This document shows positions 17,969 to 29,156 of a stretch of 31,970 nucleotides of DNA, in pieces. The DNA comes from a virus: positions 1 through 31,970 of the IMG/VR virus record IMGVR_UViG_3300042673_001382; one strand, written 5' to 3'. The notes beneath the pieces were generated by a model, which saw only the letters and a list, made by a program, of their open reading frames with translations, did not search any database and was not told the DNA's origin. Positions within the stretch are counted from its first letter, which is position 1, and every line of letters begins with the position of its first letter. The position numbers and the translations under genes are program-made.

Positions 17969-18162
17969 TGGAATCACAAAATATTGAAATCACAGCGCCC
18001 GAAGGCTTTGACAATTCTGAATTGCTGGACTTATACCGCACTCGAATAAAATTCCTTGAGGGTATAATCGAAGCGGCGACAAGCCGGGGCGATGTTGATG
18101 AAATCGTAAGGATTCAGGCAGAAATTCAGACGGTAACAGATGCTATTAACGCTCTTACGTAA
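17968..18162 (+). CDS. Small coiled-coil-like protein (64 aa)
   Basis: The ATG overlaps the previous stop by one base. The product is acidic and mostly helical (LLDLYRTRIKFLEGIIEAAT, then VDEIVRIQAEIQTVTDAINA), suggesting a short oligomerising helix pair. It overlaps the 22-residue-repeat gene by 23 nt. It may be a chaperone or stalk for a neighbouring fibre; no family is recognised. Confidence 0.58.
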   Translation: MESQNIEITAPEGFDNSELLDLYRTRIKFLEGIIEAATSRGDVDEIVRIQAEIQTVTDAINALT

Positions 18163-19411
18163 CCAAGCAAGCGGCGGCGCTTATGTACTCAGTGCCGCCG
18201 CTGCAATATTCACGCTGACGGGGCAGGATGCCGGACTAAATAGAGGTGTACGGTTAACAGCCGACCCAGTGACGTTCACGCTGACGGGGCAAGACGCTGG
18301 ATTAAGCAGAGGCGTAACCATAGCAGCCGACGGTGGTACGTTCACGCTAACAGGGCAGGATGCCGGATTAAGCAAAGGTGTACGCTTAGCGGCAGATAGT
18401 GGTACGTTCACGCTAACAGGGCAAGACGCTGGATTAAGCAAAGGTGTACGCTTAGCGGCAGATAGTGGTACGTTCACGCTAACAGGGCAAGACGCTGGAT
18501 TAATCAGAGCCTCTTTATTGACGGCTGATAGTGGAGTCTTTACGCTAACAGGCCAGGATGCGCAATTCTCGCAGGCGGGGCAACTAATTGCAAGCGCGGG
18601 CGTATTCACGCTCACTGGAAATGATGCCGGACTATTGCGGGCGATTCGCTTAACAGCGGACGCTGGAGCGTTCACCCTTACGGGCAATGATGCCGGATTT
18701 TTAACAGGGCAGCGATTGACCGCCGATGCTGGGGTGTTCACGCTAACAGGCAATGATGCCGGATTAAATAGAGGTGTACGATTAGCGGCAGACTCAGGCG
18801 CGTTTACCCTGACGGGGCGCGATGCCGGATTGGTCAAAGCATCAAAGCTGACAGCAGACGCTGGCACGTTCACCCTGACAGGCCAGGATGCGCAATTCTC
18901 GCAGGCGGGGCAACTAATTGCAAGCGCGGGCGTATTCACGCTCACGGGAAATGATTCCGGACTATTGCGGGCGCTTCGCTTAACAGCGGACGCTGAAGCG
19001 TTCACCCTGACGGGCAATGATGCCGGATTAAATAGGGGCCGGTACATTGCAGCGGACGCGGGAGCGTTCACGCTAACGGGTCGGGCGGCAGGATTGGTAA
19101 AAGCCTCAAAGCTAACAGCGGAGGCGGGAACGTTCACGCTAACTGGATACGCGGCCGGGCTTAGTGAAGCGGGTGTCTTTTCAGCCAATACCGGAACATT
19201 CACATTATCCGGGCAAGATGCCGGATTTGTAAGGTCTTTGAAAATAACGGCTGACGGTGGAGTTTTCACGCTAACAGGTAGAGATGCCGGATTTATTAGG
19301 GCGTGTGTTCTGCCTGCTGAAAGTGTAGGATTTGTTTTAAGCGGTCAGGGTGCAAACATTGTTTATTCAGGGGAGGAAATTTTTGTGCCTATTGTGGCAT
19401 TTTTTTACTAA
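18140..19411 (+). CDS. Repetitive virion protein of 17 tandem 22-residue repeats
   Basis: After a 23-residue lead, the 423-residue protein is 17 copies of a 22-residue unit with consensus FTLTGQDAGLxRGxRLTADxGT, then a partial eighteenth copy (FVLSGQGANIVYSG) and a hydrophobic tail. The regular hydrophobic, Gly and small-residue pattern fits a beta-solenoid or stacked beta fold; similar FTLTGQDA repeats recur in phage and metagenomic tail proteins. It would form an elongated surface fibre. The start overlaps the upstream gene. The first ATG is weakly supported, since the clear reading begins at GGAYVLSAAAA a few codons later. Confidence 0.75.
   Translation: MLLTLLRNQASGGAYVLSAAAAIFTLTGQDAGLNRGVRLTADPVTFTLTGQDAGLSRGVTIAADGGTFTLTGQDAGLSKGVRLAADSGTFTLTGQDAGLSKGVRLAADSGTFTLTGQDAGLIRASLLTADSGVFTLTGQDAQFSQAGQLIASAGVFTLTGNDAGLLRAIRLTADAGAFTLTGNDAGFLTGQRLTADAGVFTLTGNDAGLNRGVRLAADSGAFTLTGRDAGLVKASKLTADAGTFTLTGQDAQFSQAGQLIASAGVFTLTGNDSGLLRALRLTADAEAFTLTGNDAGLNRGRYIAADAGAFTLTGRAAGLVKASKLTAEAGTFTLTGYAAGLSEAGVFSANTGTFTLSGQDAGFVRSLKITADGGVFTLTGRDAGFIRACVLPAESVGFVLSGQGANIVYSGEEIFVPIVAFFY
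18209..19330 (+). repeat. Seventeen 66-bp coding repeats with an internal block duplication
   Basis: Units begin with the codons for FTL at 18209 and every 66 bp after. Units 3 and 4 are the same protein and nearly identical DNA. Units 6-7 and 11-12 are near-identical over about 110 bp, 330 bp apart (five units). Units 9-10 resemble 13-14, so a block of five was copied and one unit later lost. Recombination between units is the simplest cause. Confidence 0.85.
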
Positions 19412-19966: not shown

Positions 19967-22054
19967 ATGGCTGTAAGGGTAAAGAAGATTGCAGACGATA
20001 GTCTATTTTCTTTCACATGCGCACAATGGGCTATGATGGAAGCGACGGATAAATCCGACTGGACTATCCTTGAAAACACATGCGGTCTTGTAACGCAATT
20101 GTCCTACCCTTACGCAGCAAGCGAATTTTTCTACACTCTTGATGGCCTGGTAGCGGCTGACGACCCATTGCAGATCCAAACGCAGGACGGTGTTAGCACA
20201 ATACTATTCAAGAATCAGGCGGCGGCCAAAGTATTGGCAGGCCCGGTTTCAGGTCCGGACGCATATCCAACGTTCCGATCACTCGAAACAACAGACCTGC
20301 CAGATATAACGGAGGTTGTGCAGGACGCAATAGGGCCGATCCTTACAGATACGGATACGGTTAACTTTACCTATACGGATTCCACCCCCGAAATAAAGGC
20401 AGACGTTCGCCTACAAATGTCGGTAACTTCCGATGCTTCAGGGGTTAAGTTGTCCGGGGATAGTGCAAGCCCTGGTAATAGTAAACTTTATGGAACGGAT
20501 GTAAGCGGCGTAAAGGGGTGGTACGATCAGCCTTCAGGCGGCGGCGGCGGCAATTACCAGACTCTACGCGACGGCGGGGTTGATGCTACGCAAAGAGCTG
20601 CAGCAAACTTTGTTGATACGGCGCGAATTTCGTTTACCCTGACAGACGACGCGGGTAATAATGAAACAGAAGTTAATGCTGATATAATTGCCAATTCGAT
20701 CGGCAACAGCCAACTAAGGCAGGGCGCGGCGGCTTCTGTGATTGGCAGAAGCGCGGCAACGGGGGGCGATGTGGCAGATATTGTAAGCAGCGCAAACCAC
20801 CAAGTATTAAAGCGTAGTGATACGGGTACTTTGATATGGGGCGCTGTGACAACTGACAACATCGCCGACAATGCCGTAACAACAGCCAAAATAGCAGACA
20901 GCGCCGTAACAACAGCCAAAATAGCCGACAGCGCCGTAACAACAGCCAAAATAAACGACTTAGCAGTTACTACGGCGAAGCTGGCTGATAATGCCGTGAC
21001 TACGGTTAAAATAACGGATTTAAACGTTACTACGGGCAAAATAGCTAACGACGCGGTTACATACGCCAAACTACAAAATGCAGCAGCCAATAACGTTGTT
21101 TTAGGGAATATAAACGGCGCTGGTACTGATTATGAGGAGTTAACGGTTGCAAACCTTTACACTCTTTTAGGCATGACAGGCACGGCAAACCGTTTTGCAC
21201 TCTGGACAGGTGCAAACACGCTAAGCTCTGATGCTGCATTTACTTTTGATGCAGGTAACGACCGGATGACCATAACAGGCACGATTGCGGGCCTTGGTGC
21301 AAACAACGCCTTTTTAAATCTCAATTCCGGCGCCATTGCAGGGGCAACCGAGTTTCTACGGATGTCCGGAAATATCACTGCGAACCTGATTGCGGGGCAA
21401 TACAATGCCAACAACGCAAACGTGGATTCAAACTGCATTTACACTATCCTGACGGGTGGAGCTAACGCGGGTGATCCTGTTATGCAGTTCACAATTTCGG
21501 GGGTGGTTACTCACTCTATCGGGATTGACAATAGTGACGCCGACAAATTCAAGATTACGCCAAATGCAGCAAGGCCGGGCGCAAATGCTAATAGCGGGCT
21601 TATTATCACTAACGCGGCGGCGGCTCGTGTGGGTATTAACAAAGATGCTCCGGCCCATGCGCTTGACGTTGCAGGAGTAACACAGGCGCACCAATTCAGG
21701 AACCACACGAACGCATGGGTGGCTGGTAATGTAGTTTTCGGCACGGGTGCAGGAACCGGCCCCGTATTAAATGAAATTGTAGGCGGTGTCAATGGTCTAC
21801 GAATACGCTTTACCACAGGCACAACCCCAACCAACAACGGCGATATTTTAACAGCTACTTACCCGACGTCGTTTGGTGGTGAAAGTTATGTAACGATGTC
21901 GGGACGCACTACGGTTGCCTACAATGACGAACGGGCAAAGTTTTACATATCAGCAGCCGGCGCAAACAACTTTACCCTAAAGGCAAACGGAACGCTAACA
22001 GCGTCTAAAGAATACCATTTACAATTTACCATCTTTGGTATAACCCTTGGTTAA
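19967..22054 (+). CDS. Large tail-fibre-like protein with 10-residue repeats
   Basis: This 695-residue protein has an N-terminal domain (about 1-190) that could attach to the particle, a Gly-rich hinge (SGGGGGNYQ), then seven 10-residue repeats of the type AVTTAKIADS (from residue 301). A long beta-rich C-terminal region ends in YHLQFTIFGITLG. AVTTAKI repeats are common in phage tail fibres, where they form the stalk, and the terminal region usually holds the receptor-binding tip. Near residues 560-570 RVGINKDAPAHALDV matches the VGIGTxxPxxxLDV motif found in many fibre proteins. Chaperone or autocleavage functions are not visible. Confidence 0.8.
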   Translation: MAVRVKKIADDSLFSFTCAQWAMMEATDKSDWTILENTCGLVTQLSYPYAASEFFYTLDGLVAADDPLQIQTQDGVSTILFKNQAAAKVLAGPVSGPDAYPTFRSLETTDLPDITEVVQDAIGPILTDTDTVNFTYTDSTPEIKADVRLQMSVTSDASGVKLSGDSASPGNSKLYGTDVSGVKGWYDQPSGGGGGNYQTLRDGGVDATQRAAANFVDTARISFTLTDDAGNNETEVNADIIANSIGNSQLRQGAAASVIGRSAATGGDVADIVSSANHQVLKRSDTGTLIWGAVTTDNIADNAVTTAKIADSAVTTAKIADSAVTTAKINDLAVTTAKLADNAVTTVKITDLNVTTGKIANDAVTYAKLQNAAANNVVLGNINGAGTDYEELTVANLYTLLGMTGTANRFALWTGANTLSSDAAFTFDAGNDRMTITGTIAGLGANNAFLNLNSGAIAGATEFLRMSGNITANLIAGQYNANNANVDSNCIYTILTGGANAGDPVMQFTISGVVTHSIGIDNSDADKFKITPNAARPGANANSGLIITNAAAARVGINKDAPAHALDVAGVTQAHQFRNHTNAWVAGNVVFGTGAGTGPVLNEIVGGVNGLRIRFTTGTTPTNNGDILTATYPTSFGGESYVTMSGRTTVAYNDERAKFYISAAGANNFTLKANGTLTASKEYHLQFTIFGITLG
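20867..21076 (+). repeat. Seven 30-bp coding repeats (AVTTAKI) in the tail-fibre gene
   Basis: The first three copies are nearly identical DNA (GCCGTAACAACAGCCAAAAT), while later copies diverge at codon third positions and in protein. The 10-residue unit alternates Ala/Val, Thr-Thr and Lys-Ile. Copy number could vary by slippage. Confidence 0.8.
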
Positions 22055-26723: not shown

Positions 26724-27302
26724 ATGACATTCGAGGCAATAATTCAGGAGTACAGCAAAGCGGTAATTGAATCCGGGTTTGTGTCAAAGGTGGGCGGGCT
26801 TGCTCAGGTAGCAAGTGTAAGCACACCCGGAGGAAATCAGACGGTTGTCATGGCAAAACTATTGCCGTTTGAGTCCGGCACATACTCGACTATTTCACCC
26901 GACAGCAAAGAAACGGGTATTGCATTTTGGCGGGCAAGCCCAACCAGGATCACACGGCAAAGCGCCTACCTATCAGAACACCAAAACACGCTAACACTTA
27001 CTGTATGGGTGAATGGTGACAAAGTGAAGCTATCCAGTGACATGGATGCTATTATGTACCTGCAAAAATTGATTGCAGGACATAGGCCGAAAATAGACCA
27101 AAACAGCCCATACCGTAGGGTAAGTATGGAATTTATAGGCGATAGCTTAGGAGAGGTTGTAACGGGCTATGGATGGGATGGGTTAAAATTCAAATACCAC
27201 GAATTGCCGCACCGTCTTTTTAACCTTCAGTTTCGCTTTTCGGCTTTTGTCGGGGCTGGATGCACAACGCCAACGGCGCATATAGTTACTACGGTATGCT
27301 AA
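26724..27302 (+). CDS. Probable tail-completion or neck protein
   Basis: This 192-residue protein is mixed alpha/beta, with a helical start (FEAIIQEYSKAVIESGFVSK), strands (LTLTVWVNGDKVKLSS), and an aromatic C-terminus (LFNLQFRFSAFVG). Position after the connector-region gene and ahead of the tail-assembly chaperones fits a tail terminator or head-tail connector, but sequence similarity is not recognised. Confidence 0.6.
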   Translation: MTFEAIIQEYSKAVIESGFVSKVGGLAQVASVSTPGGNQTVVMAKLLPFESGTYSTISPDSKETGIAFWRASPTRITRQSAYLSEHQNTLTLTVWVNGDKVKLSSDMDAIMYLQKLIAGHRPKIDQNSPYRRVSMEFIGDSLGEVVTGYGWDGLKFKYHELPHRLFNLQFRFSAFVGAGCTTPTAHIVTTVC

Positions 27303-27631
27303 TACTCGAATCAATAAGCGCGGCGATTAGCGCCTGGGTAATATGCCGGGTGCTCATGGAGCCGGGAATGATCTTTGAAAAGTGGGGTTTGTTTGTGGAT
27401 GGGCTGGCAAACAAGGGCATGGAATGGATAGCGAAGCCCTTAGGGTATTGCGGTGTGTGCTTTTCCGGCCAATGGGGTTTTTGGTTCTACCTGATCGCAT
27501 GGCGTGACCGCTGGCAGGCGGGGGAGCTAATAGCCTTTACACTTCAGACAATAGCGGCCTTCATGGTCATTGATTACATAAAAGAAACAGGGCAAACATG
27601 GTTGAATCAATTGAAAAGAGAATCCAGTTAA
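27296..27631 (+). CDS. Small integral membrane protein
   Basis: From ATG 27296, which overlaps the previous stop, the 111-residue protein has three hydrophobic segments: LILESISAAISAWVICRVL (2-20), WGFWFYLIAW, and LIAFTLQTIAAFMVIDYI. A CGVCFSGQWG motif lies before the second. A membrane protein in the tail module is odd: possibilities include holin-like lysis, exclusion or an ejection component, none shown. An alternative ATG at 27260 would add 12 residues from within the preceding gene. It overlaps the next gene by 34 nt. Confidence 0.65.
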   Translation: MLILESISAAISAWVICRVLMEPGMIFEKWGLFVDGLANKGMEWIAKPLGYCGVCFSGQWGFWFYLIAWRDRWQAGELIAFTLQTIAAFMVIDYIKETGQTWLNQLKRESS

Positions 27632-28086
27632 CGGATAACAGCTTTGAGGCCGGAGGGGTGAAATACATCATTCACTCGAGCCTGAATATTGAACGTTACC
27701 GGCACCTGGACGAATTGCAGGTTCGGGCGGCATACGGTACAGATTACGCGGGGCTTTTTCGAGGCTTCCTAAAATGGGTAGAGCTGAAAAACGCCTCAAA
27801 GCCTTTTGATGCTGATACACATTTGCGGAATGTATTTGAGGGTGTGTTAAGAAAGCAAAACAAGCAGAACGACCCGCTTTTGTTGATCTGCACTTTGTTC
27901 TGCGATCCTGAGGGGGCAGACCGGACGGCATGGAGCGAAGAACGGGCAAACGAAACAATAGAGGCATGGAGCCGGGAAGGCTACGCGGTTGAAGATTTTT
28001 TCAAATTGGGGCTGGAATTTGTACGGCGTTATCAGGTCGCCTTTCAGCCCGATTTCCCGAATACTTCGGAAGCGGAGGAAAGCTAA
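27598..28086 (+). CDS. Tail assembly chaperone, short form (lambda G-like position)
   Basis: This 162-residue acidic, helical protein lies three genes upstream of the tape measure. Its last 94 nt overlap an open -1 frame that continues to 28274 with no early ATG. A short and a frameshifted long chaperone in front of the tape measure is the classic tailed-phage plan (lambda G/GT). It has no enzyme motifs. The zero-frame ending (PDFPNTSEAEES) is an acidic tail typical of the short form. Confidence 0.72.
   Translation: MVESIEKRIQLTDNSFEAGGVKYIIHSSLNIERYRHLDELQVRAAYGTDYAGLFRGFLKWVELKNASKPFDADTHLRNVFEGVLRKQNKQNDPLLLICTLFCDPEGADRTAWSEERANETIEAWSREGYAVEDFFKLGLEFVRRYQVAFQPDFPNTSEAEES
27996..28002 (+). 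other. Candidate -1 slippery heptamer T TTT TTC
   Basis: In the zero frame the codons are GAT TTT TTC, giving X XXY YYZ as T TTT TTC. It is the first slip site after the -1 frame opens (a TGA ends that frame at 27990-27992). Slip here would replace the last 27 residues of the short form. Confidence 0.45.
28053..28059 (+). other. Alternative -1 slippery heptamer T TTC CCG
   Basis: The codons GAT TTC CCG give X XXY YYZ as T TTC CCG, 25 nt before the zero-frame stop. Slip here would retain a natural-looking sequence (FQPDFP then EYFGSGG). I prefer this site by protein appearance, though CCC-type slips are less common than TTT ones. Confidence 0.45.
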
Positions 28087-28274
28087 AAGGGAAAGAACCT
28101 GAAAAGGAAGTGGCCATTGACACGGTGGTAAAAGATCAGGCTGGTTTTTGGATGTCGGTATTGACTACGGTTTCAACCACCACAGGAACACCATTAACAG
28201 ACGTTCAAAAAATGGATGTGTTTGATTTTTTCGCCCTATTGGGCGTAGTGGAACGAAGGAACAAGGCAAGATAA
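28059..28274 (+). CDS. -1 frame extension of the tail chaperone (GT-like long form)
   Basis: From either slip site the -1 frame continues for about 70-90 codons to TAA 28272-28274, giving a fusion of about 225 residues. Its sequence includes EYFGSGGKLKGKEPEKEVAI, then QAGFWMSVLTTVSTTTGTP and DVFDFFALLGVVERR. It ends 1 nt before the next start codon (TAATG), so the region is genuinely coding, but no ATG appears until 28152. Reinitiation at GTG 28110 or ATG 28152 is the alternative. Product: long-form tail assembly chaperone, inferred. Confidence 0.62.
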   Translation, partial: EYFGSGGKLKGKEPEKEVAIDTVVKDQAGFWMSVLTTVSTTTGTPLTDVQKMDVFDFFALLGVVERRNKAR

Positions 28275-28804
28275 TGGGTAGCATAAGCGAACAAATACAG
28301 CGAATTGAAGCCATTAAAAACCGGCTTCTAAACCTGTCCGATGCAATAGCAACGGCTGGCGCTGATTTGTGCGCTGACATTGCCGACCGGGTTATAAACA
28401 GAGGTGAACGCGGTGAAGGCGGCAAATTTAGCCCGTATTCAACGAAAGAAGTTCCGGCGTTCTGGTATATGGGTAGAAGCCTAAACGCGCAAGGTGAGGC
28501 AAGGGTTAAGGCTAAGGCTAAAGCTAAAGAGGGCATGTCTTACAAAGAGTTCCGGGAGGCGAACAACCGACCGACGGCCTTCAAAAACTTTTCCTTTTCT
28601 CAAGAGATGTGGCGGGGTTTTGGCGTGAAAAAGGTGGAGGCGAACGGCGGGGATTATACCCTTGTGATCGGCGGGCAAACGAAAGAGAGTGAGGAAAAAA
28701 TAGCCTGGATGTCCGGGCAAGAAAAGGTTTCAATCATTGCGCCGTCTGAAGAAGAGAAACGGCGGCTTTTGCGAACACTTACAAATAATGTGCTAAATGG
28801 CTAA
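28274..28804 (+). CDS. Probable tail-completion or virion morphogenesis protein
   Basis: This 176-residue protein has a helical start (ISEQIQRIEAIKNRLLNL), an Ala/Lys-rich middle (VKAKAKAKEG), and KIAWMSGQEKVSIIAPSEEE near the C-terminus. The late Ser-Ile-Ile-Ala-Pro-Ser-Glu-Glu pattern resembles tail-completion or Mu gpG-like proteins, a weak match. The start codon overlaps the preceding stop (ATAATG), and the end overlaps the next gene by 8 nt. Confidence 0.6.
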   Translation: MGSISEQIQRIEAIKNRLLNLSDAIATAGADLCADIADRVINRGERGEGGKFSPYSTKEVPAFWYMGRSLNAQGEARVKAKAKAKEGMSYKEFREANNRPTAFKNFSFSQEMWRGFGVKKVEANGGDYTLVIGGQTKESEEKIAWMSGQEKVSIIAPSEEEKRRLLRTLTNNVLNG

Positions 28805-29156
28805 GAAAAAATCTTTCAAATCATTGCCTAAAAAGGCTCAACGGGCGGCATTTGCCCAAATGGACGATGACGGGACGCGGCGCGGATCTGGGAAAGGCGG
28901 TTTTTCTTCACATGTAAAAGCATCTTCAAAAAAGTTGCCCCATATAAAAAGTGCAAGCCAAGCGGAAAAGTTAAGCCTTACACAAAAAGCGTTCAAATCA
29001 AAAGGGGCAGATAATGAACGGCAAGTAGCCGGACTTAAATTTGGAATTGATACATCAAAAAGGCTGTTAAGGTCTGGCACGTCAAGTGAAAAAAGAGAAG
29101 CGAAAGAGTTTCTTTCAACAGCAAGAGCCTTTAAAATAAAAAATAAGATAAAATAA
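28797..29156 (+). CDS. Small very basic protein before the tape measure
   Basis: This 119-residue protein is dominated by Lys, Ser and Ala (MAKKKSFKSLPKKAQRAAFA and KSKGADNERQVAGLKFG). It is probably an unstructured or helical nucleic-acid or protein binder. No known family. It precedes the tape-measure start by 8 nt. Confidence 0.62.
   Translation: MAKKKSFKSLPKKAQRAAFAQMDDDGTRRGSGKGGFSSHVKASSKKLPHIKSASQAEKLSLTQKAFKSKGADNERQVAGLKFGIDTSKRLLRSGTSSEKREAKEFLSTARAFKIKNKIK

Follow-up and report, generated by a model that had tools for sequence, protein, structure and literature searches.

A phage of Bacteroidota type very probably makes a pair of tail-assembly chaperones of the lambda G/GT kind by -1 frameshifting. 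The pair is encoded in the window, by which we mean the whole stretch of 31,970 nucleotides that we analysed. An earlier note on this DNA had proposed a -1 programmed frameshift in a tail chaperone pair, and relatives, dual coding and distant homology now support this proposal at the level of sequence. Our analysis probably identifies the tail chaperone pair of an environmental phage clan that matches no PHROG or Pfam family, and it gives a concrete slip site. The frameshift trick is known in phages; the protein family is one that the searched libraries do not recognise. The more interesting part is the link of this clan to a family of unbroken homologues, together with the reverse programming suggested there.

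The two frames lie where the earlier note had placed them. The zero frame, of 162 residues, runs from an ATG at 27598 to a TAA at 28084-28086. The -1 frame, open from 27993, ends with a TAA (28272-28274) that shares bases with the ATG of the next gene at 28274. The note had also counted the pair as three genes upstream of the tape measure, and two genes do intervene before 29165 (Table 1). Its estimate of about 225 residues for the fused product is exact: a computed join at T TTT TTC (27996-28002) gives 225 residues, of which the -1 frame contributes a 90-aa, T-like extension (28002-28271).

Table 1. Features of the putative chaperone locus, in window coordinates
Feature	Position	Strand	Evidence
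Small gene directly 5' of chaperone, overlapping its start	27260..27631	+	ORF; L028 homologue
Putative short tail-assembly chaperone (gpG-like), zero-frame product, 162 aa	27598..28086	+	ORF; homologues L002/L003, L028, L061, L139-L141
-1 open frame, stop-to-stop	27993..28274	+	Always -1 in L002, L003, L028, L061, L139-L141
Slippery heptamer T TTT TTC, predicted -1 shift site	27996..28002	+	Conserved in relatives
Possible stimulatory stem, 9 bp then 4 bp	28009..28050	+	RNA folding
Second heptamer T TTC CCG, rejected as shift site	28053..28059	+	Lost in L002, L003
Next gene, 176 aa, start overlaps extension stop	28274..28804	+	ORF; homologues
119-aa gene between chaperone pair and tape measure	28797..29156	+	ORF
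Tape measure protein gene, runs off contig end	29165..31970	+	Pfam TMP_3 7.9e-23; PHROG tape measure 9e-35

Elsewhere the window contains several repeats. A 423-aa protein (18140-19411) is built almost entirely from a repeat unit about 30 residues long (A-D-x-G-x-F-T-L-T-G-x-D-A-G). A 695-aa protein (19967-22054), perhaps a tail fibre, has the motif (S/N)-A-V-T-T-A-K-I repeated in series in its middle part. The left end of the contig (1-60) begins within a short tandem repeat encoding Y-T-E-N-V-P-P.

Described families offer little guidance to the locus. Among the scanned tail-region proteins, the tape measure alone meaningfully matches a described family (PHROGs, Pfam), and hmmscan against PHROG and Pfam recognises neither chaperone protein of the window. 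The short form and the extension have no tblastn match among annotated phages, a scan of genome contigs with the short form finds no match, and Rfam gives none either. For the short form, fold searches with an AlphaFold model (pLDDT 67) return no significant structural match; the few named viral fold matches, themselves non-significant, include several tail assembly chaperones.

Relatives at two distances are informative. Two near relatives, L002 and L003, come from independent metagenome contigs (IMGVR 3300020570_000049 and 3300047548_001116). Their amino acid identity to the window is 95-97% in the short form and 94-97% in the extension, and each retains both frames as well as T TTT TTC. Between the window and L003, synonymous changes in the zero frame affect 49 of the 133 codons before the slip site and 0 of the 30 codons in the overlap (Fisher p=1e-5). 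The lack of synonymous change in the overlap fits both frames being translated from the slip site on. Judged by these substitutions, selection acts on both reading frames throughout the overlap, starting at the slip site.

More distant loci were gathered by aligning the tape-measure domain, which yielded 80 viral and 26 genome loci. Five distant relatives (L028, L061 and L139-L141), with 29-36% identity in the short product, share the -1 layout and the position of a T-run slip site. In L028 the short form is 35% identical and T TTT TTC lies at the equivalent place. Its extension, about 31-33% identical and in the -1 frame, ends in a TAATG with the tape measure start. L061 (short form 31-32% identical) has an equivalent -1 layout with a T9 run, and in L139-L141 (29-32%) a T9 run again accompanies the -1 pair. 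The earlier note had asked whether homologues conserve both frames with the heptamer; they do, down to about 29-36% identity of the short product.

The neighbouring genes recur in these relatives. A homologue (44%) of the small gene at 27260..27631 is likewise found upstream of the chaperone in L028, and in Parabacteroides phage PDS1 the gene at the equivalent position is named DUF1360. L139, L140 and L141 are chaperone pairs found elsewhere in the records of L027, L029 and L105. In these three records the pair is not adjacent to the tape measure, which is 73-78% window-like in its conserved domain, and homologues of the 176-aa gene adjoin the tape measure.

The same anatomy is frequent around related tape measures. 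In 52 of 85 non-redundant loci, a -1 extension ends no more than 200 nt before the tape measure, compared to 8 for a +1 control over the same 85 loci, and 49 of the 52 have an in-phase heptamer. In a second family, comprising 23 loci, T TTT TTT lies at a Phe-Phe pair and is followed by a conserved -1 extension. Both slip-site Phe codons are TTT in all 16 loci checked, while elsewhere 62 Phe codons are TTT and 117 are TTC. Among the loci L107-L126, from Bacteroidota and other genomes, several in Bacteroides and Phocaeicola likewise place a -1 pair directly ahead of a related tape measure, with C CCT TTT or T TTT TTC as its heptamer. Comparison by hhalign gives no significant link between the window family and the Bacteroides C CCT TTT group (L107 and others). 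Hence we count that group as similar anatomy only.

A described family can be reached through the terminase. The window's terminase pointed to Flavobacterium sp. phage 1/32 (KJ018210), the two terminases being 37% identical. Phage 1/32 carries F132_37/38, by annotation a frameshifted tail assembly chaperone, directly before the tape measure. The family of this chaperone, phrog_8914, mostly consists of one unbroken frame of about 250 aa and occurs in phages of Flavobacterium (FpV9), Bacteroides (B40-8, B124-14), Parabacteroides (PDS1) and Croceibacter (P2559Y). Pairwise blastp between the chaperones of the window and of phage 1/32 finds no similarity, and hmmscan of the window protein does not detect phrog_8914; the link is made by profile-profile comparison only.

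For this comparison we constructed fused sequences. Six fused proteins of the window clan align with phrog_8914 (hhalign) along 200 columns that span the junction (Prob 96%, E 3.9e-9). The score of the fused alignment is 66, and the best of 100 column shuffles reaches 27. The extension alone, a match independent of the fusion, aligns with the C-terminus of phrog_8914 with a score of 35, compared to a shuffle maximum of 18.6 (n=100). In turn, the zero-frame form alone matches phrog_8914 up to the junction only, and the zero-frame tails do not match it (score 10). The divergent relatives brought the E-value to 4e-9; three near-identical rows only gave an unusable result (E 0.014, Prob 3%). By these profiles the fused product, read across the slip site, is homologous to the unbroken family.

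How the frame is changed is a separate question. Downstream stimulatory RNA structure is frequent, though not universal, in lambda-type frameshifted chaperones. The earlier note had suggested looking for such a structure, and in the window a stable stem begins 6 nt past the heptamer, the usual distance, with 9 bp continued by 4 bp. The 45-nt stretch at 28008-28052 folds with -18.7 kcal/mol (z -2.9); longer stretches have z from -0.6 to -1.5. The stem is identical in the window, L002 and L003, but no comparable stem lies at the equivalent place in L028. It may act as a stimulator of the shift in the window and its near relatives.

Instead of the ribosome, RNA polymerase could slip on the T-run and place an extra U in the mRNA. 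The T9 runs in L061, L139-L141 and many loci of the second family, like the A9-A11 runs in the homologous phrog_8914 family, would suit such slippage. Yet in the window and in L028 the run is just six T long with a C after it, a sequence suited to tandem slippage of Phe tRNAs, and in the window the stem lies at the usual distance from the heptamer. We regard slippage by the polymerase as unlikely here, though less so in the relatives with T9, and the shift in the window as probably ribosomal.

Still less likely is a gene of its own for the extension, with its translation coupled to that of the short form. The earlier note had stated correctly that the -1 frame has no ATG until 28152, but it did not mention the in-frame GTG codons at 28110 and 28125. 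Any of these three, or a rare start in the overlap, could serve such a gene. However, selection on the -1 frame extends back to the slip site, and a conserved R-L-x-x-R-F-P-x-Y-F lies upstream of every ATG, GTG and TTG of the window (the first at 28110). Moreover, the relatives have no start in common, and homologues encode the fusion in a single unbroken frame. According to the note, homologues in which the extension stands as a gene by itself, opened by a conserved start, would refute a frameshift; no such case was found among the relatives.

The note had listed two candidate heptamers, T TTT TTC (27996) and T TTC CCG (28053), and both do sit in the zero-frame heptamer phase. The first is kept in relatives. 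The second is not conserved: one near relative has T TTC CTG in its place and the other T TCC CTG, while the homology of the -1 frame starts upstream of 28053. We reject T TTC CCG as the shift site, leaving it only a minimal chance. A single gene split by sequencing error, which the note had named as a refutation, or by pseudogene formation is equally improbable: homologues with one unbroken frame do exist, but independent contigs and divergent relatives share the -1 break at a slip site, and selection acts on the overlap in both of its frames.

The unbroken homologues may use slippage in the opposite direction. A survey of phrog_8914 in 80 IMG/VR loci found 74 single-frame members with the junction motif KKK (58 non-redundant). 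In 74 of 74 this motif is encoded as AAA AAA AAA; one search pattern included KKK but did not prescribe its codons. Outside the motif, the 58 non-redundant genes use AAA for 650 Lys codons and AAG for 595. Both shifted frames stop within 4 codons of the A-run in 81% of the 58 genes, compared to 7.6% elsewhere in the genes. The A-run is A9-A11 in these genes (L014-L023 and L144-L223; for example, L014 near 1870-1882). In phage 1/32 and in six members (L151-L156), the gene is broken into -1 frames at the A-run.

In Thermus dnaX, slippage yields a short form from a long frame (PMC5009743). An invariant A-run with stops close behind it fits a short form made from the long frame in a dnaX-like manner. 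This pattern of codons and stops suggests that unbroken homologues make the short and long pair in reverse, by slippage on the A-run.

Taking both sides together, we lean towards a single chaperone clan that makes its pair in either direction: by a -1 shift from a broken frame, or by A9-A11 slippage into stops. The broken-frame side would comprise the window, L028, L061, L139-L141, phage 1/32 and L151-L156; in the unbroken frame, either polymerase or ribosome would slip on the A-run. If this is true, one A gained or lost would switch between the two directions of programming, and tail chaperones would have a second, reversed way of being programmed. Our literature searches on transcriptional slippage in tail chaperones yielded general papers only; subscription journals were mostly outside their coverage, and the phenomenon may be described elsewhere. 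Because the window clan is joined to phrog_8914, cultured Bacteroides phages such as B40-8 and B124-14, whose annotation shows just one unbroken protein, may also produce a short form that is hidden from view, through slippage on the conserved A-run.

For the window, we propose the following sequence of events. Most ribosomes would read 27598-28086 and make the 162-aa short protein. At T TTT TTC, a minority would undergo tandem slippage, in which both Phe tRNAs re-pair one base back (TTT TTT). After the shift, these ribosomes would stay in the -1 frame as far as 28274, yielding a long protein of 225 aa whose first 135 residues are common to both forms. That the pair acts as chaperones is suggested by synteny and by the annotation of the distant homologue. 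By analogy with lambda, many short and few long copies would cover the tape measure protein, and the tail tube protein would be recruited by the -1 part of the long copies.

In lambda, both forms bind the tape measure through their common part, and the tail tube protein is bound by the -1 part (PMC5009743). The conserved -1 frameshift of lambda gpG/gpGT is reviewed in PMC5009743, citing Xu, Hendrix and Duda 2004. Like lambda, the window has a short protein and a predicted -1 long version in the neighbourhood of the tape measure gene. Its two frames overlap, with the second in -1, and lie a short way upstream of 29165. An in-phase X XXY YYZ heptamer, conserved in relatives, lies in the overlap, and the extension is conserved as part of a fusion, with no start of its own in the overlap. 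The window differs from lambda in its slip site, T TTT TTC, which lies 27 codons before the stop, whereas the lambda slip site is close to the end of G (PMC5009743). Two genes also separate the pair from the tape measure in the window, and the window has no detectable sequence similarity to known chaperone families.

Closer counterparts are found by profile. Members of phrog_8914 share the gene position before the tape measure with the window, but mostly have an unbroken frame with AAA AAA AAA at the junction; this KKK is absent in the window, where T TTT TTC is found instead. Phage 1/32 shifts at an A10 run, in contrast to the T6C of the window, and its pair lies directly 5' of the tape measure. 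Like the window, phage 1/32 has a -1 frameshifted pair, there by annotation (158 and about 246 aa), and the fused products of the two phages are related by profile comparison.
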